This document shows positions 2,988-45,372 of a DNA stretch of 64,000 nucleotides, piece after piece. Source of the DNA: a virus; the IMG/VR virus record IMGVR_UViG_3300036770_006296, positions 62,001-126,000 of that record. One strand, given 5' to 3'. How positions within the stretch are numbered: position 1 is the first letter of the stretch; each line of letters begins with the position of its first letter. The notes beneath the pieces were generated by a model. The model was given only the letters and a program-made list of their open reading frames with translations, searched no databases and was not told the origin of the DNA. The position numbers were made by a program, and so were the translations under genes.

Positions 2988-4268
2988 ATGAAAAAACAGG
3001 TATTATCGTTCGCCGAATTCGTGTTTGAAGCATATAACACTATGAATGAGGAAGACAAAGTTACAATAGGATCTTTTGATCCCCTAAAAAAAACCCTAGG
3101 AGGGGGATTAAGTTTTAATAAAACTGAGACTGAAAGATTTAAGTTAACAATCGACAGACTAAATATGCTTAATCCTTCTACAAAGGTAGCTGAAGAGGCT
3201 CTTGTAAGAGCAGAAGGTATAACAGAGAAGATAAACCAATCATCAGAAGGGGTTAAGATATCATCAGCAGGAATAACACAGGCTGTTACCGTTACAAACA
3301 AATATGGATGGTTAGTAAATGGTACATGCAGAGTACAAAATGATATTACTGCCGATTCTAGTGTAGCTGAAGGAGATTCTCCTGCTTATAATGGAACAGA
3401 TGGCACTGATGTAGTTGTGGCACCAATAGCATCAGTGTTAAAAAAATTGTTTGCACATAACCTAGATTCAGCTAATGACTTGTTAGGGAAATCAAAAAAG
3501 GAACTTAAAAACGACTCAAATTTTGGAACAAAAGGTAAGAGCAAAGGGAAAAGTGAAGTGTTTTATACTATTGATGAAGACTCATTGAAAGGAGATGTTA
3601 TACAAATTATTAAATTTGAGGGGGAAGTCCCAGGAACTCCAACTGGAGAATATGGATTTGGATTCCCTGTTTATACAATTGCAGAAAATCCAGAAGGAGG
3701 TCTTGCAATTGAGACCGGAACTAACGAGATATCTAAGGATATTTACGATGTGGTTCTTCCCCCAGATCCAACAGCAACAGTTGTGACTGTAGAGAATAAG
3801 CCTTACAATTCAACGGGAGTGGATTTCTTTGAAGAAAATGCGGTTGAGATTGGTGAGGATGGTATGGCAGCTCTTAGAGCTATTCTATCCGAATTTAATA
3901 CAATTTCAAAAATCGTAGTTAATGGAGGAGCATCTAGTAAACCAACTTCCAGAGCAGGAGGAAACGAGAAACTAGCTAAAGATAGAATGGCTGCTGGAGT
4001 TGCTGCTTTGACCCAAATGAAAAAAGATGGTGTTGCTCAGCTAGCTGGTGCTACTATTTCTGCAGGTGAAGCAAAAGTACAGGCTGCAGCACCTTCAGAA
4101 AGCGATCCTAAGAATCAACAGGTTTCTTTTGTAATCTCTGGAACAATTAAAAAAATGGTGGAGAGCACAGATACAACACCCGTTGTTATAAAGAAAGTTG
4201 ATTCCAAGATGGCTCAGGTAGTAACATTGAAAAAGCAATATTTATATTGTAGTTATAATATATCTTAA
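2988..4268 (+). CDS. diverged OmpA-like domain protein with MKKQVLSF leader
   Basis: 426 residues, sharing the leader MKKQVLSFAEFVFEA with the gene at 866. The C-terminal ~130 residues keep the OmpA-like order: a strand with FFEENAVEIGEDG, IVVNGGASS in place of GHTD, an R-x-x-x-G-V-A-A-L helix and a closing QQVSFVISG strand. Several canonical residues are replaced, including the binding Arg region, so ligand binding may be lost. It has its own late motif and terminator. Likely a virion or injected wall-contacting protein; this is an inference from the fold and leader. Confidence 0.68.
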   Translation: MKKQVLSFAEFVFEAYNTMNEEDKVTIGSFDPLKKTLGGGLSFNKTETERFKLTIDRLNMLNPSTKVAEEALVRAEGITEKINQSSEGVKISSAGITQAVTVTNKYGWLVNGTCRVQNDITADSSVAEGDSPAYNGTDGTDVVVAPIASVLKKLFAHNLDSANDLLGKSKKELKNDSNFGTKGKSKGKSEVFYTIDEDSLKGDVIQIIKFEGEVPGTPTGEYGFGFPVYTIAENPEGGLAIETGTNEISKDIYDVVLPPDPTATVVTVENKPYNSTGVDFFEENAVEIGEDGMAALRAILSEFNTISKIVVNGGASSKPTSRAGGNEKLAKDRMAAGVAALTQMKKDGVAQLAGATISAGEAKVQAAAPSESDPKNQQVSFVISGTIKKMVESTDTTPVVIKKVDSKMAQVVTLKKQYLYCSYNIS

Positions 4269-13810: not shown

Positions 13811-14488
13811 ATGAATTGCAATTTAAGTATAGTTATTCCTTGTAAAAACGAGGAAGATATAATAATAGAAACTTTAAAGTCTATAAAAAAAAGAGAGAAA
13901 TACAAAATAATTGTAGCTGACTGCTCTACCGACAAAACCAAGGAATTGATAAAAAATCACGATGCTTCTATAGAAATAGTAGATGGTGGATTACCCGCAG
14001 TAGCAAGAAATAAAGGAGCTTCTCATTCATCATCTGATCTCATACTCTTCATGGATGCTGATATGAACATATCAAATATAGATCTAGATGACATAATATC
14101 AGATTTTGAGAAAAAAAATCTTGATCTCGCTACTTGTAAGATAACAGTAGATGGATTTTTCTACAAGATACCCTATTTTTTATTCTATATAGCTCAAAAA
14201 ATAATCTCATTAAAAACTCCATTCGCTGTGGGAGGGTTCATGCTTTTTAGAAAGAGTGAATTTGATAAAATGTGTGGATTTAACGAGAACGATAAGTTTG
14301 CAGAGGACTATCATCTTTCAATGAAAATAGACCCTAGAAAATTTAAAATATACAACAAAAATATCTCAACATCAAACAGAAGACTTAAAAATAAATCAAT
14401 ATTCTACATGGTAAAAATGATGACTCTTTGCTGGATTAATAGGTACAATGATGACTTCTATAAAAAAGATTACAACTACTGGAAATAA
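13811..14488 (+). CDS. GT2-family glycosyltransferase
   Basis: 225 residues. GT-A fold: LSIVIPCKNEEDIIIETLKS at the start, VADCSTDKT, a GGLPAVARNKG segment, ILFMDADM (the D-x-D metal site at about residue 77-80), AVGGFMLFRKSEFD and NDKFAEDYHLSMK near the acceptor site. About residues 115-135 form a hydrophobic stretch that may touch the membrane. Known: such enzymes transfer sugars from nucleotide-sugars. Next to a phosphoesterase gene, it may modify host surface glycans, phage DNA or virion proteins. Confidence 0.85.
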   Translation: MNCNLSIVIPCKNEEDIIIETLKSIKKREKYKIIVADCSTDKTKELIKNHDASIEIVDGGLPAVARNKGASHSSSDLILFMDADMNISNIDLDDIISDFEKKNLDLATCKITVDGFFYKIPYFLFYIAQKIISLKTPFAVGGFMLFRKSEFDKMCGFNENDKFAEDYHLSMKIDPRKFKIYNKNISTSNRRLKNKSIFYMVKMMTLCWINRYNDDFYKKDYNYWK

Positions 14489-14512
14489 CAAACTGTGCTA
14501 AATACATTTTAT

Positions 14513-15226
14513 ATGAAAAAGTGGAGAACTATAATAATGAGTGATTTGCATCTAGGTGCAAGACAATCTCAAACAGATAAGATATTAAAATTCTTGAACG
14601 AAAACGAATCAGATATCCTAATATTAAATGGAGACATAATAGATGGATGGGCTTTGAAATCAGGGGGAAAATGGAAAAAAGACTGTTCCAAGATTTTTAG
14701 AAAATTTATGAAGAGAAGTGAAGATGGAACCAAAGTGATTTATATAAGGGGAAACCACGACGATTTTTTAAAACCTTTTGTTCCTTTTAAACTTAACAAT
14801 ATAGAAATGCTTAGAAAATATATCCATATAGGAATAGATGGAAGGAAATACTTTTGCTTTCACGGTGACGTTTTAGATTTTGTTATAATGAAAGCTAGGT
14901 GGCTAGCCGTTATAGGAGGATGGTCATATGATCTAGTAATTAAATTAAACACAGGGTATAACTACATCAGAAAAAAATTAAACCTCCCTTATCATTCACT
15001 AGCTAACACAATAAAACAGTCAGTAAAAGGAGCAATAAATTTTGTGTCCAATTTTGAGGAAAATGCTAAGGGATTAACCAAACAAAAGGGATATGATGTT
15101 GCAGTTTGTGGTCATATACATCAACCAAAAATAGATAAAGAATATATGAACTCCGGCGATTTTTGTGAGAACTCAACCTGTTTAGTGGAGGATATAAATG
15201 GTAATTGGAAAATTATACATCTATAG
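14513..15226 (+). CDS. calcineurin-type metallophosphoesterase (LpxH-like)
   Basis: 237 residues from the ATG at 14513 (an upstream GTG at 14495 is less likely). All metal motifs are present: SDLHLGA, LNGDIIDGW, RGNHDD, FHGD and CGHIHQP. The arrangement is close to UDP-2,3-diacylglucosamine diphosphatase-like proteins, which cleave pyrophosphate bonds in lipid A synthesis. A long helical insert lies between the HGD and GHIH motifs, as in that family. With the adjacent GT2 gene it may alter host lipopolysaccharide; a nucleic acid phosphodiesterase role is the alternative. Confidence 0.82.
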   Translation: MKKWRTIIMSDLHLGARQSQTDKILKFLNENESDILILNGDIIDGWALKSGGKWKKDCSKIFRKFMKRSEDGTKVIYIRGNHDDFLKPFVPFKLNNIEMLRKYIHIGIDGRKYFCFHGDVLDFVIMKARWLAVIGGWSYDLVIKLNTGYNYIRKKLNLPYHSLANTIKQSVKGAINFVSNFEENAKGLTKQKGYDVAVCGHIHQPKIDKEYMNSGDFCENSTCLVEDINGNWKIIHL

Positions 15227-15252: not shown

Positions 15253-15600
15253 CTAAGCTCCTAATCTTTTAACCATCAATTTAAAGAGCCTCATACTATC
15301 AATTCCAGGTAGATCGGAATCCTGGGGATCATCAGTTCTAAACTCTTTAAGAATCACTTTCTGAATACCTTCGAACTCTGTGTCTTTTGGTATATCCCAA
15401 AAAGAGATGTAATATATGTTTATAAAATCTCCCCTAAAAGTGACTCTTGGCGGAATATGAAGTACACCGCTTATGTATAGAACATTATATAAGCCTCGCT
15501 TTTTCGTAACGGGGACGGATACTACTATTCTATCATCAATCAGATCTGCTCTATACCCAAGCTCCTCAATTTCACCCAAGAATTTCTTTGTCACATTCAT
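15253..15600 (-). CDS. repeat-array protein 9 (degenerate)
   Basis: 115 residues, last gene of the tandem array. The C-terminus LPGIDSMRLFKLMVKRLGA keeps the family end (GIDSKRLLNLMIKRGLFI), and the N-terminus keeps FLGEIEELGYRADLIDDRIVV. Only two worn repeats remain (HIPPRVTFRGD, DIPKDTEFEG). Function unknown. Convergent with the phosphoesterase gene. ATG overlaps the preceding gene. Confidence 0.72.
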   Translation of the reverse strand: MNVTKKFLGEIEELGYRADLIDDRIVVSVPVTKKRGLYNVLYISGVLHIPPRVTFRGDFINIYYISFWDIPKDTEFEGIQKVILKEFRTDDPQDSDLPGIDSMRLFKLMVKRLGA

Positions 15601-16040
15601 AAAAATACCCCTTGTTTAACCATAAGCTTAAATAATCTCTTGGTGTGTATATCATCTATAGATCCTTCCCATGATTCACCCCAATCACCAGATGTGCTAA
15701 ACATATATGTTCCACCCCTTTGATACCCAAGCATAATCTTACTCTTTCCGTTATTGAAAACAGTGGAGGGATGTATCTTAATACCTTGGTCGTATAATCC
15801 CAAAACAATATTGCCACCATTGTTAAATTGAACACCCTCAGGAATCTCCTGTAGCTCCGTTAGATGAACATTACCCTTGTTATTAAAGATAACACCAGAA
15901 GGCAGAGACTTTAAGTGATTAATGCCCACGTTCCACTTGTAAGCAAGCCCATTAGATCCAGTGATCTCAATCTCGTTGCCCAAGATATTATAAGTGATCT
16001 TATCACTATCTAACTGTTCTATAAATTCTTCCCTTGTCAT
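15597..16040 (-). CDS. repeat-array protein 8
   Basis: 147 residues. Family N-terminus MTREEFIEQLDSDKITYNI, three repeats of the L-x-x-L-P-x-G-V-x-F-N-N-x-G-N-x type, and the end RLFKLMVKQGVFL. The third repeat is diverged (HPSTVFNNGKSKIML). ATG/stop overlap with both neighbours suggests coupled translation. Confidence 0.75.
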   Translation of the reverse strand: MTREEFIEQLDSDKITYNILGNEIEITGSNGLAYKWNVGINHLKSLPSGVIFNNKGNVHLTELQEIPEGVQFNNGGNIVLGLYDQGIKIHPSTVFNNGKSKIMLGYQRGGTYMFSTSGDWGESWEGSIDDIHTKRLFKLMVKQGVFL

Positions 16041-16504
16041 ATAAATAAGCCTCTTTTAATCATCAAGTTCAATAACCTCTTACTATCTATTCCCTCTATG
16101 TTACCTTCCCAATTTTTAAACCATACAACATAATTCCCCATTAATGACTCCAAATAGACACTCCCTTCATTCTTAAACTCCACACCAGGCGGAAGGGTTT
16201 TTAATGAGTCCAAATAGACACTCCCTTCATTCTTAAACTCCACACCAGGAGAAATGGTTTCTAATGAGTTCAAATAGACACCCCCTTCATTCTTAAACTC
16301 CACACCAGGAGGAAGGGTTTTTAATGAGCTCAAATAGACATTCCCTCCATTCTTAAACTCCACACCAGAAGGAAGGGTTTCTAATAATGAGTTCAAAAAG
16401 ACAGTCCCATTCCTATCTCCTCTAGTCACCACTAGCTTATCTCCTTTTATCTCGTAGGAGTAACCTTCCTTATCTAACTTCTTTATAAACTTTTCTTGTG
16501 TCAT
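16037..16504 (-). CDS. repeat-array protein 7
   Basis: 155 residues. N-terminal MTQEKFIKKLDKEGYSYEI, then four 20-residue repeats (LKTLPPGVEFKNEGGVYLNS type), then GNIEGIDSKRLLNLMIKRG. The repeats form a regular beta-solenoid or LRR-like pattern. Overlaps both neighbours by four bases. Confidence 0.78.
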   Translation of the reverse strand: MTQEKFIKKLDKEGYSYEIKGDKLVVTRGDRNGTVFLNSLLETLPSGVEFKNGGNVYLSSLKTLPPGVEFKNEGGVYLNSLETISPGVEFKNEGSVYLDSLKTLPPGVEFKNEGSVYLESLMGNYVVWFKNWEGNIEGIDSKRLLNLMIKRGLFI

Positions 16505-16947
16505 ATAAATAAGCCTCTTTTAATCATCACGTTCAATAACATCTTACTATCGATACCTTCTATGTTACCAGTCCATGTATAAATCCATCCTCTGATTAGT
16601 GATTCCAAATAGACACCACCTTCATTCTTAAACCCCACACCAGGGGAAATACTAGTTAGTGATCTCAAACTGACATATCCCTCATTATTAAACTCCATAC
16701 CAGATGGAAGACTAGTTAGTGAATCCAACCAGAGATCCCCTACATTCTTAAACTCAATACCAGGAGGAAGTGTAGTTAATGAGTTCAATTCGACATATCC
16801 TTCATTCCTAAACACCACATCAGAAGGAAGACTATCTAGTAATCTCAAATCGACCCACCGTTTATGATTAATAACTATCTTATCTCCTTCTATCTTGTAG
16901 GAGTAACCTTTCTCTTCTAATATCTCTATAAATTCTTCTCTTGTCAT
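16501..16947 (-). CDS. repeat-array protein 6
   Basis: 148 residues with four repeats that are more diverged than those of its neighbours (LTTLPPGIEFKNVGDLWLDS, LTSLPSGMEFNNEGYVSLRS). Same head (MTREEFIEILEEKGYSYKI) and tail (GIDSKMLLNVMIKRGLFI). Confidence 0.78.
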   Translation of the reverse strand: MTREEFIEILEEKGYSYKIEGDKIVINHKRWVDLRLLDSLPSDVVFRNEGYVELNSLTTLPPGIEFKNVGDLWLDSLTSLPSGMEFNNEGYVSLRSLTSISPGVGFKNEGGVYLESLIRGWIYTWTGNIEGIDSKMLLNVMIKRGLFI

Positions 16948-17336
16948 ATAAACATTCCCTTACTTATCATGTAGTTCAATAGCCTCTTATTATCTATTCC
17001 TTCTATGTTACCAGTCCATTTATGAAAGTATCCTCCGATTAATGATCCCAAATAGACATCCCCTCCATTCTTAAACACAACACCAGGAGGAAGGGTTTTT
17101 AATGAATTCAAAAAGACATTGCCATTATTCCTAAACTCCACACCAGGAGAAATGGTTTTTAATAAGTCCAAACTGACATAACCTTTATTCATAAACACCA
17201 CTTCAGGAGGAATGGTTTCTAATGAGCCAAAAATAAAACCCCCAATTAAACCCCCTACAACCACTATCTTATCACCTTCTATATTGTAGGGGCAACCTTC
17301 CTTATTTAATATTCCTACAAACTCTTCTCTTGTCAT
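16944..17336 (-). CDS. repeat-array protein 5
   Basis: 130 residues, one of the short members, with three repeats (LETIPPEVVFMNKGYVSLDL, LKTISPGVEFRNNGNVFLNS, LKTLPPGVVFKNGGDVYLGS). Head and tail as in the family; ends NYMISKGMFI. Confidence 0.78.
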   Translation of the reverse strand: MTREEFVGILNKEGCPYNIEGDKIVVVGGLIGGFIFGSLETIPPEVVFMNKGYVSLDLLKTISPGVEFRNNGNVFLNSLKTLPPGVVFKNGGDVYLGSLIGGYFHKWTGNIEGIDNKRLLNYMISKGMFI

Positions 17337-17848
17337 ATAAACACACCTTGCTTAATCATCAAGTTCAGAAGCCTCTTACTATCTATTCCCTCTATGTTAC
17401 CTTCCCATTTACTAAACCGAACAAACCGCCCTCCAACTAATGATCTCAAATCGACATCCCCTTCATTCTTAAACTCCACACCAGGAGGAAGGGTTTTTAA
17501 TGAGCTCAAATTGACACCCCCTTCATTCCTAAACACCACGCCAGGAGAAATGGTTTGTAATGATGACAAATCGACATACCCCTCATTCCTAAACACCACG
17601 CCAGGCGGAAGGGTTTTTAATGAGCGCAAATAGACATGCCCTTCATTCTTAAACTCCACACCAGGGGGAAGTGTTTCTAATGATCTCAAATCGACATCCC
17701 CTCCATTATTAAACTCCACGCCAGGGGGAAGGGTTTGTAATGAGCGCAAATAGACATCCCCTCTATGAGTAACAATTATCAGATCTCCCACAATCTCGTA
17801 GGAGTAACCTTTCTCTTCTAATATCTCTATAAATTCTTCTCTAGTCAT
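17333..17848 (-). CDS. repeat-array protein 4
   Basis: 171 residues with five repeats close to the consensus LKTLPPGVEFKNEGDVDLRS. The DNA repeats are 60 bp and nearly identical, which favours slippage or unequal crossing over. Head MTREEFIEILEEKGYSYEI; tail SKRLLNLMIKQGVFI. Confidence 0.78.
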   Translation of the reverse strand: MTREEFIEILEEKGYSYEIVGDLIIVTHRGDVYLRSLQTLPPGVEFNNGGDVDLRSLETLPPGVEFKNEGHVYLRSLKTLPPGVVFRNEGYVDLSSLQTISPGVVFRNEGGVNLSSLKTLPPGVEFKNEGDVDLRSLVGGRFVRFSKWEGNIEGIDSKRLLNLMIKQGVFI

Positions 17849-18288
17849 ATAAATAAGCCTCTTTTAATCATCACGTTCAATAACATCTTACTATCTACCC
17901 CTTCTATGTTACCTTCCCATTTACTAAAATAACCCCCAACTAATGATCCCCATTTACTAAAATAACCCCCAATTAATGATCCCAAATTGACATTCCCTCC
18001 ATTATTAAACTCCACTCCAGGAAGAAGCTCCTCCACATGATATAAAATAGCATCCCCACCATTATTAAACACCACACCAGAAGGCATAACTTTTACACTC
18101 CTTAAGTCGACATCACCTTTATTATTAAACTCAACATTAGGAGGAATGCTACTTATTGAGCTTAGCCAAACATTGCCATTATTATCATCGATCCTCCCAG
18201 TATTAACCACTATCTTATCACCTTCGTTACCGTAGGTGTAATAGTAATCCATCTGTTCTAATACATCTATAAATTCCTCTCTTGTCAT
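17845..18288 (-). CDS. repeat-array protein 3
   Basis: 147 residues. Three diverged repeats, then a duplicated linker (SLIGGYFSKWG followed by SLVGGYFSKWEG) before the common tail, a visible short tandem duplication of 36 bp. Head MTREEFIDVLEQMDYYYTY is one of the more divergent ones. Confidence 0.77.
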   Translation of the reverse strand: MTREEFIDVLEQMDYYYTYGNEGDKIVVNTGRIDDNNGNVWLSSISSIPPNVEFNNKGDVDLRSVKVMPSGVVFNNGGDAILYHVEELLPGVEFNNGGNVNLGSLIGGYFSKWGSLVGGYFSKWEGNIEGVDSKMLLNVMIKRGLFI

Positions 18289-18980
18289 ATAAATAAGCCT
18301 CTTTTAATCATCAAGTTCAGAAGCCTCTTACTATCTATTCCATCTATGTTACCTTCCCATTCATCAAATCGACCACCAAATAATGAATCAAAATAGACAT
18401 CCCCTCCATTCTTAAACTCCACACCAGGAGGAAGGGTTTCTAATGATTTAAGATAGACATCCCCCCAATTATTAAACTCCACACCAGGAGGAAGGGTTTT
18501 TAATGATCTCAAATCGACATCCCCTTCATTCTTAAACTCCACACCAGGAGGAAGGGTTTTTAATGATCTCAACCAGACATCCCCTCCATTCTTAAACTCC
18601 ACACCAGGAGGAAGGGTTTCTAATGAGTTCAAATTGACATACCCTCCATTCTTAAACTCCACACCATGAGGAAGGGTTTTTAATGAGTGCAAATTGACAT
18701 ACCCTCCATTCTTAAACTCCACACTAGTAGAAAGGGTTTTCAAAAAATTCAGAAAGACATTGCCATTATTCATAAATACCACCCCAGGAGGAAGGGTTTC
18801 TAATGATTCCAAATTGACATTCCCTCTATTATTAAACTCCACACCAGGAGGAAGGGTTTGTAATGATTGCAATTCGACACTCCCATATAACCCTCCTCCA
18901 GTCACCACTAGCTTATCTCCTTTTATCTCGTAGGAGTAACCTTTATTTTTTAATATCTTTATAAAAGCTTCCCTAGTCAT
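18285..18980 (-). CDS. repeat-array protein 2 (longest)
   Basis: 231 residues with eight 20-residue repeats, the most of any member, six of them almost consensus. One repeat (LKTLSTSVEFKNGGYVNLHS) with its flanking bases is shared almost exactly with protein 1, indicating recent gene conversion or duplication. Repeats alternate a beta strand (V-x-L), a turn and a short L-P-P-G loop. No catalytic residues are evident; a binding or decoy scaffold is the simplest idea. Confidence 0.8.
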   Translation of the reverse strand: MTREAFIKILKNKGYSYEIKGDKLVVTGGGLYGSVELQSLQTLPPGVEFNNRGNVNLESLETLPPGVVFMNNGNVFLNFLKTLSTSVEFKNGGYVNLHSLKTLPHGVEFKNGGYVNLNSLETLPPGVEFKNGGDVWLRSLKTLPPGVEFKNEGDVDLRSLKTLPPGVEFNNWGDVYLKSLETLPPGVEFKNGGDVYFDSLFGGRFDEWEGNIDGIDSKRLLNLMIKRGLFI

Positions 18981-19444
18981 ATAAACACCCCTTGTTTAAT
19001 CATCAAGTTCAATAACCTATTACTATCTATTCCATCTATGTTACCTTCCCATTCATCAAATCGACCACCAAATAATGAGTCCAATTCGACCTCACCTCCA
19101 TTCTTAAAAACAACATCAGGAGAAATACTAGTTAGTGATTCTAAAACGACATACCCTCTATTATTAAACTCCACACTAGTAGAAAGGGTTTTCAAAAAAT
19201 TCAGAAAGACATTGCCATTATTCATAAATACCACACCAGAAGGAAGGGTTTTCAAAAAATTCAGAAAGACATTGCCATTATTCATAAATACCACATCAGG
19301 AGGAATAGTATCTAATTCTTCCCACTCTTCTATTGAATCCAAATAAACATCACCATCTTCTGTAACCACTATCTTGTCCCCTTCAATCTCGTAGGAGTAA
19401 CCTTTAAGATCTTCTAATACCTTGATAAATTCTTCCTGTGTCAT
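18977..19444 (-). CDS. repeat-array protein 1 (promoter-proximal)
   Basis: 155 residues, first full gene of the array. Four repeats, two of which (TLPSGVVFMNNGNVFLNFLK type) are adjacent duplicates. Head MTQEEFIKVLEDLKGYSYEI; tail SNRLLNLMIKQGVFI. It starts 27 bp after the kinase-like gene ends, so it is probably read from the late motif at 20135-20143. Confidence 0.78.
   Translation of the reverse strand: MTQEEFIKVLEDLKGYSYEIEGDKIVVTEDGDVYLDSIEEWEELDTIPPDVVFMNNGNVFLNFLKTLPSGVVFMNNGNVFLNFLKTLSTSVEFNNRGYVVLESLTSISPDVVFKNGGEVELDSLFGGRFDEWEGNIDGIDSNRLLNLMIKQGVFI
19172..19294 (-). repeat. recent ~62-bp duplications shared with 18719-18782
   Basis: A block starting near the SpeI-like ACTAGTAG and running through GAAAGACATTGCC to ATAAATACC occurs at about 18719-18782 and 19172-19233, and again in part at 19234-19294, with very few differences. 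This marks recent copying inside the array. Confidence 0.8.
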
Positions 19445-19471: not shown

Positions 19472-20056
19472 TTAAAAATCTAATATTTTTAAATTTCCAG
19501 AACCGCTATAGCCAAATTGATCCCTATGCAAATCCATTCCTGGCTGAGATGTATTCCTCATCTTTCTCAGGTCTTCTATCCCTAAAGTGTCCAGATATTT
19601 TTTCCATTTGTCCGAGAACTTAGAAAAAATCTTTATATACCTTTCCAAACAAACTTTCCATCTTTTCCATATATTCTTTATTTCTATGGTTGAATTCTCA
19701 AGGAGATTCGAAATTATATCTAAATTACTTTGGCTTAAATCCTGTGATAGGATTTCTTCTAGATCTAATTTTGGACTCAAACTCCAAAGCCAATTGTCCA
19801 GTATATCATATTCCCTTCCAGCTTGTTTCGTGTCTAATTTCTCTATTGAGATCCAATCTTTTCCTTCGCCATAAACCACGGGAAAAATGGAAGAATCCAT
19901 TTTTAATAATTCTAAATACCACTTTTCGATTGTTTCGTATCTAGTTTTCTTGAAAACTCTATCAGTATGTAATGGATCATAGAAAACATCGTGCTCAGCC
20001 CCACTACCAAAAGAAGGGCTTTCAAAAAAATTTTCAAATATCACTATATGCTTCAT
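19472..20056 (-). CDS. protein-kinase-like protein with MKHIVIFENF leader
   Basis: 194 residues. Starts MKHIVIFENFFES, the shared leader. Then a kinase-like order: GSGAEHDVF (glycine loop), RVFKKTRYE (candidate lysine), a hinge WISIEKLDT, and near the C-terminus MDLHRDQFGYSG followed by NLKILDF, matching the catalytic H-x-D/N loop and the D-F-(G) metal site. Known: similar short kinase-like proteins occur in other phages, mostly uncharacterised. The protein ends at the LDF motif, so the usual C-lobe is missing; activity is uncertain. Inferred: a packaged, injected kinase or pseudokinase that acts on host proteins. Confidence 0.65.
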   Translation of the reverse strand: MKHIVIFENFFESPSFGSGAEHDVFYDPLHTDRVFKKTRYETIEKWYLELLKMDSSIFPVVYGEGKDWISIEKLDTKQAGREYDILDNWLWSLSPKLDLEEILSQDLSQSNLDIISNLLENSTIEIKNIWKRWKVCLERYIKIFSKFSDKWKKYLDTLGIEDLRKMRNTSQPGMDLHRDQFGYSGSGNLKILDF

Positions 20057-20076: not shown

Positions 20077-20130
20077 CTAATTTAGATATCCTTTCTTGTC
20101 TAATATCTTTATAAAACTCTCTCTAGTCAT
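20077..20130 (-). pseudogene. 17-codon remnant of the repeat-array family
   Basis: Directly after a late motif, an ATG opens a frame reading MTRESFIKILDKKGYLN and then a stop. This matches the array head (MTREEFIKILxxKGYSYEI) and then breaks off. It is likely a deleted tenth member whose promoter now drives the kinase-like gene 20 bases downstream. Confidence 0.7.
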
Positions 20131-20134
20131 ACAT

Positions 20135-26459: not shown

Positions 26460-27269
26460 ATGAAATTATTTGATGAACGCCAGGTGAAGATGATGAAATA
26501 TCTTTCCTCTGGACTTCCACCACAGAGTAGATGGCGGTACAATCCGGTAACAGACCTTATAGATATAGAGGGGGATTTCAATTGTGGATGGACGGGTTTT
26601 AAAGATTTTAGAGGAGTTAAATTTGGAAAGATCACTGGACATTTCGATTGTTCCGGTATAGGACTCACCAGTTTAATAGGAGCTCCTGAAGAGGTCGGAA
26701 AAGATTTCAATTGTTCGAAAAACAATTTAACTAGTCTTGAAGGTGCACCTAAAAAGGTTGGTTATAGTTTCAATTGTTCAAAAAACTCTCTAGAAAGCCT
26801 AGAAGGAGGTCCTGAATATGTTAGGGGAAATTATGATTGTTCGAGTAATAAGCTCGTTACTCTTAAAGGATCCCCTAAAGCTTTACGCAGGGGGAGTAAA
26901 TTTATTTGCTCCAATAATCTTTTAAAAGATTTAAACGGGTTAATAGATAATGATTTTATGGGATTTTTTACATGTAAACGCAATCCCCTTACTAGTCTGG
27001 AAGGAGCACCAATCAACATAGAACCTTATTGGGATGGAAGTTATGAAGGAAAAATTTCATATTATGGAAATAAAGGTGTTTCGGGAAAGGTGCTCGAATT
27101 AATTCATCTCACGATGATTGAAAAGAAAGTGCCATTTATTATCGCTCTAGGTATTCTTAAGAACGAGATAAAATCGAGCGATCTTAAGAAGCTACTTCCT
27201 TCGGATCAGGAGAACGTAGAAGATGTACTAAAAGGAGCTAGCATGTTAGCTAAATTTGAATCTTTCTAA
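26460..27269 (+). CDS. LRR-like repeat protein, ends KGASMLAKF
   Basis: 269 residues. After an N-terminal YNPVTDLIDIEGDFNC-type cap come about seven ~21-residue repeats of the form F-x-C-S-x-N-x-L-T-S-L-E-G-A-P-x-x-V-G. The C-terminal ~70 residues are helical and end LKGASMLAKFESF, a version of the shared KGxxMLxRFG tail. Four relatives lie at 33151, 39293, 39930 and 44512. Known: similar phage LRR-like proteins exist, function unknown; the fold usually binds proteins. Confidence 0.82.
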   Translation: MKLFDERQVKMMKYLSSGLPPQSRWRYNPVTDLIDIEGDFNCGWTGFKDFRGVKFGKITGHFDCSGIGLTSLIGAPEEVGKDFNCSKNNLTSLEGAPKKVGYSFNCSKNSLESLEGGPEYVRGNYDCSSNKLVTLKGSPKALRRGSKFICSNNLLKDLNGLIDNDFMGFFTCKRNPLTSLEGAPINIEPYWDGSYEGKISYYGNKGVSGKVLELIHLTMIEKKVPFIIALGILKNEIKSSDLKKLLPSDQENVEDVLKGASMLAKFESF

Positions 27270-33150: not shown

Positions 33151-33867
33151 ATGAAAATACTAGGATTTAATTTCCTTACTCTAAGACAGATAATATTTTT
33201 AAACGAGTTCACTTATGGCAAGTGGACTCTTAACAAGAAGACTGGACTGGTCGATATAGAAGGAGATTTCAATTGTTCAGATAAAAAATTAACCGGCTTT
33301 AAAGGTGTTCGGTTTGGAGTGGTTACTGGGAGTTTCTATTGTTACGATAACAATCTCACAAGTCTTGAGGGAGCGCCACAAAAGGTTGGATGGTATTTCG
33401 ATTGCTCCCATAACTCTCTCACAAGTCTTGAGGGAGCGCCACAGAATGTTGGGAGGGATTTCCGTTGCTACAATAACAAGCTCACAAGTCTTGAGGGAGC
33501 GCCGCAGAAGGTTGGATGGAGTTTCTATTGCCCATATAACAGGCTCACAAGTCTTGAGGGAGCGCCACAGGAGGTTGGAGGGTGTTTCTATTGCTACAAT
33601 AACTCTCTCACAAGTCTTGTGGGAGCGCCACAGGAGGTTGGAGGGAGTTTCGATTTCTACGGTAATCCGATCTCAGAGAAGACGTTAAAGTTGGTATGGG
33701 AGACGATGAGAGATAATAAGATCGACTATTGGTTTGCTTTATCGATACTTAAGAGCCAGATCGAGAGTGAGGATTGGAAGAAGATGTCTATAGGCTTAGA
33801 CGAGAGATTATCTAAAGACGCTCTGAAGGGTATTTCAATGATGGATCGGTTTGGACATTTTGATTAG
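33151..33867 (+). CDS. LRR-like repeat protein, ends KGISMMDRFG
   Basis: 238 residues. Cap GKWTLNKKTGLVDIEGDF, six repeats (LTSLEGAPQKVGWYFDCS type), and a helical C-terminal domain ending LKGISMMDRFGHFD. It is inserted between the two VWA genes of the MoxR system, with its own promoter. The 63-bp DNA repeats are almost identical. Confidence 0.82.
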   Translation: MKILGFNFLTLRQIIFLNEFTYGKWTLNKKTGLVDIEGDFNCSDKKLTGFKGVRFGVVTGSFYCYDNNLTSLEGAPQKVGWYFDCSHNSLTSLEGAPQNVGRDFRCYNNKLTSLEGAPQKVGWSFYCPYNRLTSLEGAPQEVGGCFYCYNNSLTSLVGAPQEVGGSFDFYGNPISEKTLKLVWETMRDNKIDYWFALSILKSQIESEDWKKMSIGLDERLSKDALKGISMMDRFGHFD

Positions 33868-39292: not shown

Positions 39293-39889
39293 ATGCCTGG
39301 AATATTAATGGATCTAAGAAAATTAACGGAATACCAACCTTGGTTATTTAGAAACAAACACATGCAGCCAGTTATGGAAGCTCTTATGGAAGCACGTATA
39401 AATATCTTTAAGGACGAGGTACTATCCTCATTGAAAGGAGGTGATTCACTAACCGAGGATCAGATACGTATACTAGCCCTTTCTACCGATGCTTCTATTC
39501 ACATTAGGAAGGATGGAAAGATTAACGTGAATGGAATTTTTAACTGCTCTGGATTAGGACTAACTGATTTGTGTGGACTTCGATTTGGTAGAGTAAAAGG
39601 AAGATTTATTTGCAGAAATAATTCTATAACAAATCTTGAAGGGTTTCCTATTGAGGGAGATCCGGAGGTATTCTTTGACAGAAACAAAGGTATATCCGAC
39701 GGAACCTTAGATCTTATATTTGAAGCTATGAGAAAGAACCAAATGGACTATTGGTCGGCTTTATGTGTTGTTAAAAGCGAGATAGACTCTAAAGAATGGG
39801 TTGTTATGTCTAAAGGGATAGACGAGAGACTTTCACAAGACGCTCAGAAGGGAGCTTCGATGTTGGGACGATTTGGACATTTTGATTAA
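39293..39889 (+). CDS. repeat-poor member of the LRR-like family, ends KGASMLGRFG
   Basis: 198 residues. An N-terminal helical ~65 residues not found in the relatives, then KINVNGIFNCSGLGLTDL and only about two repeats, then the family's helical C-domain and the end KGASMLGRFGHFD, identical over the last residues to 39930. It shows that the C-domain and tail are kept even when the repeats are nearly gone. Confidence 0.78.
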   Translation: MPGILMDLRKLTEYQPWLFRNKHMQPVMEALMEARINIFKDEVLSSLKGGDSLTEDQIRILALSTDASIHIRKDGKINVNGIFNCSGLGLTDLCGLRFGRVKGRFICRNNSITNLEGFPIEGDPEVFFDRNKGISDGTLDLIFEAMRKNQMDYWSALCVVKSEIDSKEWVVMSKGIDERLSQDAQKGASMLGRFGHFD

Positions 39890-39925
39890 ATCATTTTTTT
39901 CTTTAAGTAGAATTTTCTACATTTA
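39889..39925 (+). promoter_or_regulatory. early-type 37-bp promoter, leaderless class
   Basis: AATCATTTTTTT to TACATTTA, four bases before the ATG at 39930; its first base is the last base of the preceding gene. Confidence 0.85.
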
Positions 39926-39929
39926 TAGT

Positions 39930-40688
39930 ATGGAACTTAATAAAGAACAAATAGAATTTTTAAACGGGTTTACTAAAGGCAAATGGACTCTTAACAAGAA
40001 GACCGGACTAGTTGATATAGAGGGTTATTTTGATTGTTCATGTGAAGAATTAACCGATTTTAAAGGTGTTCGGTTTGGAGTGGTTACTGGGAGTTTCAAT
40101 TGCAGCGGTAACAATCTCAAAAGTCTTGAGGGAGCGCCACAAGAGGTTGGACTGGGTTTCGATTGCGACAATAACAATCTCAAAAGTCTTGTGGGAGCGC
40201 CACAGAAGGTTGGAGATTATTTCAATTGTTACTGGAACAAGCTCACAAGTCTAGTGGGAGCGCCACAAGAGGTTGGAGGGATTTTCGATTGTTCCAGTAA
40301 CAAGCTCACAAGTCTAGTGGGAGCGCCACAAGAGGTTGGAGAGATTTTCGATTGTTCCTATAACAAGCTCACAAGTCTAGTGGGAGCGCCACAGAAGGTT
40401 GGGCGTTTCGATTGTTGCTATAATAAGCTCACAAGTCTAGAGGGAGCGCCACAGAAGGTTGGGGAGGGTTTCTATTGCTACAATAACCCAATCTCGGAGA
40501 ATACTCTGAATTTAGTGTGGAACACTATGCAAGAAAAAAAGATCGACTACTGGTCGGCTTTATGTATTCTTAAGAGTGAAATCTCAAGGAGTGATTTCGA
40601 GAATTTAGAGGGAGAGTTGGAAAAGAGACTTTCACAAGACGCTCAGAAGGGGGTTTCTATGTTGGGACGGTTTGGACATTTTGATTAA
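39930..40688 (+). CDS. LRR-like repeat protein, ends KGVSMLGRFG
   Basis: 252 residues from the ATG at 39930. Cap GKWTLNKKTGLVDIEGYF, about seven repeats (LTSLVGAPQEVGGIFDCS type), helical C-domain with KIDYWSALCILKSE and tail KGVSMLGRFGHFD. Repeats 3-6 are almost identical at the DNA level. Confidence 0.83.
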   Translation: MELNKEQIEFLNGFTKGKWTLNKKTGLVDIEGYFDCSCEELTDFKGVRFGVVTGSFNCSGNNLKSLEGAPQEVGLGFDCDNNNLKSLVGAPQKVGDYFNCYWNKLTSLVGAPQEVGGIFDCSSNKLTSLVGAPQEVGEIFDCSYNKLTSLVGAPQKVGRFDCCYNKLTSLEGAPQKVGEGFYCYNNPISENTLNLVWNTMQEKKIDYWSALCILKSEISRSDFENLEGELEKRLSQDAQKGVSMLGRFGHFD

Positions 40689-44182: not shown

Positions 44183-44512
44183 ATGAAAGATAAGGATATA
44201 CTAGCGAGAATAAAAGAACTATCAAATGAAGATTGGTTCCAGAACGGTGATGATTCACCGGAAGAGGTCTACGAGGAGCTTTACGGGATAGAAGCTGAAA
44301 ACGATGATCTTGCATATCTTCTCGAGTTAACTATTGGTGGACCGGGATACTCGGATGTTTGGCTTTCACGAGGTGTACTTATAGGAGATGTGCTTGCTTA
44401 CGGAGATGGATTAGAAGAGGGTGAGGAAGTTACTGAGGATGATATCTACGAAGATAATCAAATGTTTATTGCGGAAAGAAGAATGGGTTTACTTGATGAA
44501 ATAATTTTGTAA
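44183..44512 (+). CDS. acidic hypothetical protein
   Basis: 109 residues, strongly acidic, with LLELTIGGPGYSDVWLSRG in the middle and DGLEEGEEVTEDDIYED after it. The GGPGYSDVW segment recurs in phage hypothetical proteins. Its last base is the first base of the next ATG. Confidence 0.67.
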   Translation: MKDKDILARIKELSNEDWFQNGDDSPEEVYEELYGIEAENDDLAYLLELTIGGPGYSDVWLSRGVLIGDVLAYGDGLEEGEEVTEDDIYEDNQMFIAERRMGLLDEIIL

Positions 44513-45372
44513 TGGGATTAACTAAAGATCAAATAGAATGGCTAAATAGCTGCCACGGATGGGCTGGTCTAAAAAAGACTAAATGGACATTTAACGAAGA
44601 AACCGGACTAGTAGACGTAGAGGGTGATTTTATAACCCCCAATTCATATGGTTCTTGTAAAGCTTTAGGACGGAAAGGAGGTGGTGGATATGGAGGTATT
44701 AAGGATTTTATGGGTATTAAATTCGGTACTGTTACTGGGACCTTCGATTGCTCGTATAACAATCTAACAAATATAGAGGGAGCGCCTATTTACGTAGGAG
44801 GGGATTTCGATTGCTCATATAACAAACTCACAAGCTTAGTGGGAGCACCACAAGAAGTTGGAGGTTCCTTCAGTTGTATAGATAATAATCTCACAAGTCT
44901 TATTGGATCTCCTCGAAGGGTTAAGCTTCACTTCCACTGTGCTTATAACAAACTACCAAATCTAGTAGGAGCTCCTATGTACGTGGGAGGGGATTTCTGG
45001 TGCACTGATTTATCCAATGATCTACATATAGAAAGTCTGCACGGAGCAGAAGAATGTATAATAGGTGGAGATTTCGATTGTCATTACAACAAATTGAAAG
45101 ATTTAAAAGGTGCTCCTAGATTAATTTACGGTCAATTTATGGTCTATGGTAATTACGAAGGAAATTACAAAAGAGTTAAAAAAGATACATTCATTCTAAT
45201 AACTAGTACAATGAAAGAAAAAAATCTAGACTATTTTGGCGCTTTGTGCTTATTAAAAGATTCCCTCGATAAGAAGGAATGGAATAAGTTATCTAAAGGT
45301 ATAGACGAAAGATTGTCGAAAGAAGCCCAGAAGGGTCTTAGAATGTTGGACAAGTTTAAAATTTTTGAATAA
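44512..45372 (+). CDS. LRR-like repeat protein, ends KGLRMLDKF
   Basis: 286 residues, the longest of this family. Cap KWTFNEETGLVDVEGDF, a ~25-residue Gly-rich insertion, about six repeats (LTSLVGAPQEVGGSFSC type), the helical C-domain with NLDYFGALCLLKDS, and tail KGLRMLDKFKIFE. Unlike its relatives it lacks its own promoter and is coupled to 44183-44512. Confidence 0.82.
   Translation: MGLTKDQIEWLNSCHGWAGLKKTKWTFNEETGLVDVEGDFITPNSYGSCKALGRKGGGGYGGIKDFMGIKFGTVTGTFDCSYNNLTNIEGAPIYVGGDFDCSYNKLTSLVGAPQEVGGSFSCIDNNLTSLIGSPRRVKLHFHCAYNKLPNLVGAPMYVGGDFWCTDLSNDLHIESLHGAEECIIGGDFDCHYNKLKDLKGAPRLIYGQFMVYGNYEGNYKRVKKDTFILITSTMKEKNLDYFGALCLLKDSLDKKEWNKLSKGIDERLSKEAQKGLRMLDKFKIFE

Follow-up and report, generated by a model that had tools for sequence, protein, structure and literature searches.

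Why should a virus carry, in a single row, nine small genes that encode the same kind of repeat protein and differ in the number of repeats? The question is raised by a tandem gene array at positions 15253-19444 of the window, the 64,000-nucleotide stretch of DNA analysed here, which comprises bases 62001-126000 of the 206,617-base virus record IMGVR_UViG_3300036770_006296. The array, the predicted fold of its products, the pattern of fixed and variable sites, their diversification and the change in copy number between relatives were computed directly. The answer that we favour, at a probability of roughly 0.45 and hence slightly under even odds, is that the array is a gained-and-lost set of paralogues for small soluble solenoid binders whose ligand faces diversify and whose targets are most likely host proteins.

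The array consists of nine open reading frames (ORFs), all on the minus strand, and transcription runs from 19444 to 15253. All nine were found where a preliminary description, made from the DNA letters alone, had placed a nine-gene tandem array. In order of transcription, with lengths in amino acids (aa), they are:

18977-19444, minus strand: g9, transcribed first, 155 aa, 4 repeats; has an exact 71-bp block in common with g8
18285-18980, minus strand: g8, longest member, 231 aa, 8 repeats
17845-18288, minus strand: g7, 147 aa, 3 repeats; 33-bp tandem duplication near the C-cap
17333-17848, minus strand: g6, 171 aa, 5 repeats; modelled with AlphaFold2
16944-17336, minus strand: g5, 130 aa, 3 repeats
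16501-16947, minus strand: g4, 148 aa, 4 repeats
16037-16504, minus strand: g3, 155 aa, 4 repeats
15597-16040, minus strand: g2, 147 aa, diverged member, 2 recognisable repeats
15253-15600, minus strand: g1, 115 aa, degenerate, no recognisable repeat; truncated in the relative G002

Each protein is built as a conserved head, 0-8 repeats of 20 residues and a conserved tail. The repeat counts from g9 to g1 (4, 8, 3, 5, 3, 4, 4, 2, 0), all at a spacing of 20 residues (60 bp), agree with the range of none to eight given earlier. The claim that head and tail are kept in all genes holds for the family but not fully for g1, which has only a diverged head and tail and a weak family-profile score (expectation value, E, 1e-5). 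Tandem Repeats Finder called the 60-bp arrays independently, and self-identity at a 60-base lag is 0.493 compared with 0.275 (maximum 0.298) in 200 shuffles. A 4-base ATGA overlap is present at every junction between array genes; the array is co-directional and translationally overlapping, as expected of the single message that had been proposed from its overlapping start and stop codons. A Shine-Dalgarno (SD) sequence encoded in the tail codons KRG was also considered; this reading was dropped because the host probably belongs to the Bacteroidota, whose members are without SD sequences (PMC6847099). The array proteins have no obvious signal peptide or membrane segment, with the exception of one moderately hydrophobic stretch in g5.

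An AlphaFold2 model of g6, for which the input was g6 with 32 family members, reached a predicted local distance difference test (pLDDT) value of 94.1 and a predicted template modelling (pTM) score of 0.87. The predicted fold comprises a helix and hairpin cap, a stack in which each 20-residue coil contributes two short strands, and a C-terminal helix. The model, itself a prediction, thus has the coil length (20-30 residues), parallel strands and end caps expected of a leucine-rich repeat (LRR) solenoid; as modelled, the array proteins are N-capped and C-capped, LRR-like beta-solenoids without the canonical LRR motif. The motif LxxLxLxxNxL (or CxL) had 0 matches over 32 family members, even when relaxed to L, I, V or F at each L position; the repeat consensus is PPGVEFKNxGDVYLxSLKTL, and a Pfam search with E up to 1 matched none of the nine proteins to an LRR model. 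As the canonical motif is absent, the term LRR-like names a fold and not membership of a family.

Structural searches place this model among known solenoids. Foldseek with the g6 model gave no match in the PDB at E 0.001. In VIA-align, the flagellar-motor chain 8z5u_0 was best (Z 9.5), followed at Z 6-8 by the Nogo receptor, PcpA, variable lymphocyte receptors (VLRs), repebodies and TpLRR, mixed with beta-helices. The best BFVD match was A0A6J5SXX7 from an uncultured Caudovirales phage (E 9.7e-5, probability 1.00, template modelling score 0.51, 26% identity), and another BFVD entry, A0A6J7X691, is annotated as a leucine-rich repeat. Such solenoids of uncultured Caudovirales have a predicted fold class in common with the array proteins, although they are single proteins, compared here by fold only, whereas the array proteins form a tandem set. 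Like the array, the LPX-type LRRs of YopM, SspH and IpaH have a period of 20 residues and L-P-P spacing. A search of the PDB with the family profile hits YopM chains (E 2.7e-8), with hydrophobic positions that do not correspond and a best PDB structure match that is not YopM, and the member in L015 reaches yopM by tblastn (1e-9). The hydrophobic pattern is LxV in LPX repeats and VxF...VxL in the array and, unlike LPX proteins, the array proteins are small, separately capped products of tandem phage genes that contain no ligase or secretion domain. The similarity to YopM may be one of common period and composition only. VLRs and engineered repebodies provide a comparison of working principle, since they too combine a capped LRR-type solenoid and a fixed framework with variable residues on one face. 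VIA-align gave Z 6-7 to VLR B59/B61 and repebodies, where a Z below 8 may reflect a common arrangement only and no sequence relationship was shown; moreover, VLRs are secreted and somatically assembled, whereas array members are complete phage genes.

The repeats separate into fixed and variable sites. The 33 repeats of the window all keep F6, N8 and G10, and V4, V12, L14 and L17 are almost always kept; positions 9, 11, 13 and 15 vary freely, position 13 being rich in Y, W, F, D and N. Codon maximum likelihood with fixed site classes, in which recombination is outside the model and omega (the nonsynonymous to synonymous rate ratio) may therefore be inflated, gave an omega of 2.57 at positions 9/11/13/15 of the window (likelihood ratio 22.7, p 1.9e-6) and 0.12 at the framework. 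The diversification across repeats that the preliminary description had anticipated is thus supported at these four positions and not at the framework, which is under strong purifying selection (omega about 0.12). Other arrays gave omega values of 3.1 (L011, p.007) and 1.8 (L012, p.006) at the same positions, and four other arrays combined gave p.002. Recent pairs of repeats, taken from five arrays, have a nonsynonymous rate of 0.31 at 9/11/13/15 and an overall synonymous rate of 0.147. The synonymous rate at these codons themselves is likewise lower than 0.31 (0.16, p.002), so a local mutation hotspot need not be invoked. Some points weigh against the favoured reading: the four positions were chosen with the data in view, which makes the window p value optimistic and leaves only the other arrays as semi-independent; recombination between repeats can inflate omega; and two of five arrays do not convincingly reach omega > 1 (L015, 1.4, p.19; L009, 0.97, p.89). 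Because the positions were picked after the data were seen and recombination is outside the model, the diversification of positions 9, 11, 13 and 15 is supported, not proven.

A similar division of sites was observed in four related window genes with 21-residue repeats (LTSLEGAPQKVGGSFDCSYNN, LTSLEGAPQKVGG family), located at 33151-33867, 39873-40688, 44512-45372 and 26460-27269. Their framework is fixed and positions 13, 14, 16, 18, 19 and 21 are very variable, changing in this small sample as much as about fivefold faster than synonymous sites. Ancestry common to the array repeats and the 21-residue LTSLEGAPQKVGG family was not detected by hhalign (probability 0.7%, E 0.077, head region only). 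A similar split in a family without detectable homology makes it harder to discount a method artefact that any repeat family might show; equally, both may be diversifying binders.

The expectation that near-identical 60-bp units invite recombination is supported within the array. Exact blocks are common to g8 and g9 (71 bp) and to g6 and g8 (66 bp), and internal exact repeats of 41-52 bp occur at 60- or 180-bp offsets in g9, g8 and g3. Heads and tails pair differently, the head of g4 being 98% identical to that of g6 and its tail 95% identical to that of g7. The exact blocks, internal repeats, mixed pairing and 33-bp duplication in g7 point to duplication and exchange by recombination. A tree of heads and tails had mostly low support and left the order of duplication unresolved. 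A diversity-generating retroelement was considered as the source of variation and is unlikely, since no reverse transcriptase (RVT_1) was found in the 206,617-base record, which may be incomplete; control genomes gave the expected signal.

Gene number also changes between phages. Family members were found only in virus contigs, about eight besides the window (G001, G002, G003/G008, G004, G005, G006, G007 and G042). G001 has 11 array genes shown and one separate, G006 has three array genes and one elsewhere, and G007 has two single genes. An adjacent regulator gene is common to G000, G002, G004 and G006, which indicates that the locus is syntenic while its gene number changes from 9 in the window to 5 in G004, 3 in G006 and, in G002, one intact gene with one frameshifted and one truncated copy. 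The suggestion that the array may yield variants is in keeping with this series. Identical copy numbers together with purifying selection across the repeats, which had been proposed as evidence to the contrary, were not what the comparison of related phages gave. Four contigs (G003, G005, G008 and G042) break off within the array, as assemblies tend to do in repeats; no sequence difference separates G003 from G008 over the 8189 bp that precede the break of G008 in the array.

Traces of a lost gene lie beside the array in the window:

20089-20131, minus strand: head remnant of a lost tenth array gene, MTRESFIKILDKKGYLN then a stop; found by nhmmer with the head model, E 7.6e-6
19472-20056, minus strand: neighbour gene, co-directional, between the head remnant and g9; its N terminus MKHIVIFENFF resembles putative capsid-targeting N termini common in this phage

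The remnant sits just upstream of the neighbour gene, for which a single-sequence structural model was too poor for use (pLDDT 45). A second head remnant, MTREEFIETLKIEK then a stop, was observed at L105:13778-13840, where it likewise adjoins genes with capsid-targeting-like N termini. Such debris raises the possibility that the array is a by-product of recombination, consisting of near-neutral tandem duplicates under weak constraint whose apparent diversification is relaxed selection combined with recombination. The broken copies in G002 and the head remnant in the window fit this explanation, as does the absence of the family from 33 longer searched records that carry the neighbouring phosphoesterase gene, by which it is dispensable. 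However, eight of the nine window genes are intact, g2 is 79% identical to its G002 ortholog and under purifying selection (pN/pS 0.27), and exposed positions change at more than the synonymous rate, a pattern not produced by relaxed constraint alone. The strong framework constraint makes neutral expansion less likely, and we judge this explanation quite unlikely.

Wider searches returned no further relatives. There was no match at E 1e-5 by tblastn in 50,697 phage records and no relative in two pattern scans of 84,980 bacterial and archaeal genomes. Tetrasphaera phage TJE1 was rejected, as its 37% match (E 0.04) was not convincing and its annotated genes there are unrelated hypothetical ORFs. 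Pfam gave nothing above cut-off for the array proteins; matches to DSRB, Hyphal_reg_CWP and STN were sub-threshold, repeat-driven and set aside. PHROG gave no useful match and no tail family. No phage system of this form was found in databases and open-access literature, in line with the preliminary description, although LRR-type annotations exist for isolated proteins of uncultured phages. The array is best called a variant of the LRR-like solenoid binder theme, real and unusual, of which no such array has been described in the open-access literature and databases searched.

In the favoured reading, each array protein would be a capped beta-solenoid in which the head (helix and hairpin) and the tail (C-terminal helix) close the coil stack. 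The 20-residue coils would be held by the fixed residues V4, F6, N8, G10, V12, L14 and L17, while positions 9, 11, 13 and 15 alternate with this framework, presumably point outward and would form a ladder on one face that is diversified by selection. Recombination between near-identical units would duplicate, delete and swap genes and coils. The ladder may serve as the ligand face and the operon as a small evolving repertoire of binders, with ligands that are probably changing host proteins met in infection (defence or takeover targets) and not a fixed phage partner. A bolder form, namely a phage-encoded, germline VLR-like repertoire with a selection-diversified face and recombination-tuned number that neutralises changing host immune proteins as a multi-specific anti-defence system of an undescribed kind, is doubtful. 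If the diversified face does bind host proteins, phages would hold an evolving set of small binders with a logic comparable to that of immune receptors, and the array would point directly to host targets. The framework with its defined four-position variable ladder would in that case be a natural binder scaffold as well; whatever the function, gene-family turnover with site-specific diversification is documented in uncultured Bacteroidota phages.

Gene neighbourhoods bear on where such proteins might act. The main rival holds that the array encodes virion accessory parts, tail- or baseplate-associated or decorating, which bind variable host surface molecules, so that receptor binding would vary through the array. 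Tail proteins commonly contain solenoids. The array of G003/G005 has a tail-tube gene on one side and, on the other, a baseplate-wedge region that includes a 2266-aa protein; of the two single genes in G007, one comes after the tail tube and one after collagen-like tail-fibre genes. These locations in tail gene regions fit a virion role as well and count against the favoured reading. In the window and its close relatives G002, G004 and G006, however, the array is outside any tail cluster, no PHROG tail family was matched, and the proteins of 115-286 aa consist of head, coils and tail only, with no visible trimerisation or tail-attachment domain. We judge a virion role unlikely.

Neighbours of arrays often start with a motif like MKHIKLFEEF, which by sequence appears to resemble the capsid-targeting N termini of T4-type phages. 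By a simple pattern, capsid-targeting-like N termini are enriched beside arrays (6/15 compared with 23/173, p.015), and in G042 (L117) array members are interleaved with cell-wall-hydrolase-domain genes that bear them. The array head itself was rejected as a capsid-targeting sequence: none of eight heads (MTREEFI..L) matches the pattern of the neighbours, a further point on the adverse side. In G001 the gene directly downstream of the array combines a capsid-targeting-like N terminus with a domain of Tad3, a Thoeris inhibitor (E 1.5e-21). The Tad3-like genes are:

L009:6488-7225 (also L105 12853-13593) and G009:C1:162424-162783: Type I Thoeris inhibitor family (PF25185), from two of the virus records searched; one gene directly follows an array of repeat genes

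Such adjacency occurs in one record of nine or ten, which likewise tells against the favoured reading. According to PMC3012670, the internal proteins of T4 are a diverse group with anti-defence functions, which makes an anti-host role of the array plausible. IPI, IPII and IPIII are clustered, diverse, small and proposed to act against host defence, and the neighbours of the array carry capsid-targeting-like N termini; unlike T4 internal proteins, the array heads have no N-terminal pattern of this kind. The same neighbours, together with tail genes, would suit structural or assembly factors (scaffold, chaperone or head-core) whose variety reflects several phage-protein partners and whose conserved head and tail could be common docking parts. 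Against this, paralogue number varies from 1 to about 12 among related phages, the family is missing from most phages that share the phosphoesterase, and an interface with a fixed phage partner would not be expected to come under diversifying selection; an assembly role is very unlikely.

A tandem array of paralogues whose faces have diversified is a typical feature of an immunity repertoire. This background, and the status of the array as an accessory locus, would suit superinfection-exclusion or immunity proteins, each of which neutralises a different competitor-phage product. However, the surroundings yielded neither a toxin partner nor a competitor target, and PADLOC, which covers defence and not anti-defence families, gave only a chance-level match (Csm3, E 0.009); the explanation has little probability. 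Repeat expansion with a presumed binding function also occurs in Bacteroidota phages in the tandem BACON domains of crAssphage (PMC6949934). There, whole unrelated domains are repeated inside one protein, whereas the array is a row of separately capped genes.

The host assignment rests on promoter-like elements. About 35 elements of the form AATCATTTTTTTCTTTAAATAGAATTTTCTACATTTA/G, ending TACATTTA or TACATTTG, are present on the plus strand at window positions 23091-56839, close upstream of genes. Their end fits the Bacteroidota -7 consensus TAnnTTTG (PMC6847099), which makes a Bacteroidota host likely; the record is probably from a large virus of such a host. The elements also suggest that this is an early region. 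None was found upstream of the array operon, which therefore probably belongs to another expression class, and the context suggests that the array may be expressed with late head-associated genes.

Several other features were observed around the arrays. In two relatives, the repeat genes are directly preceded by an HNH_3 endonuclease gene (L010:4499-4987 and L012:5496-5996), which may have moved with or into the array. At 13811-15226 of the window, a pair of genes for a glycosyltransferase (PF00535) and a metallophosphoesterase (PF00149) adjoins the array; viral contigs contain at least 231 relatives of the phosphoesterase. Window genes at 866-2380 and 2988-4268 have the near-identical N termini MKKQVLSF(N/A)EF(I/V)FEAY, the first also with an OmpA-like domain.

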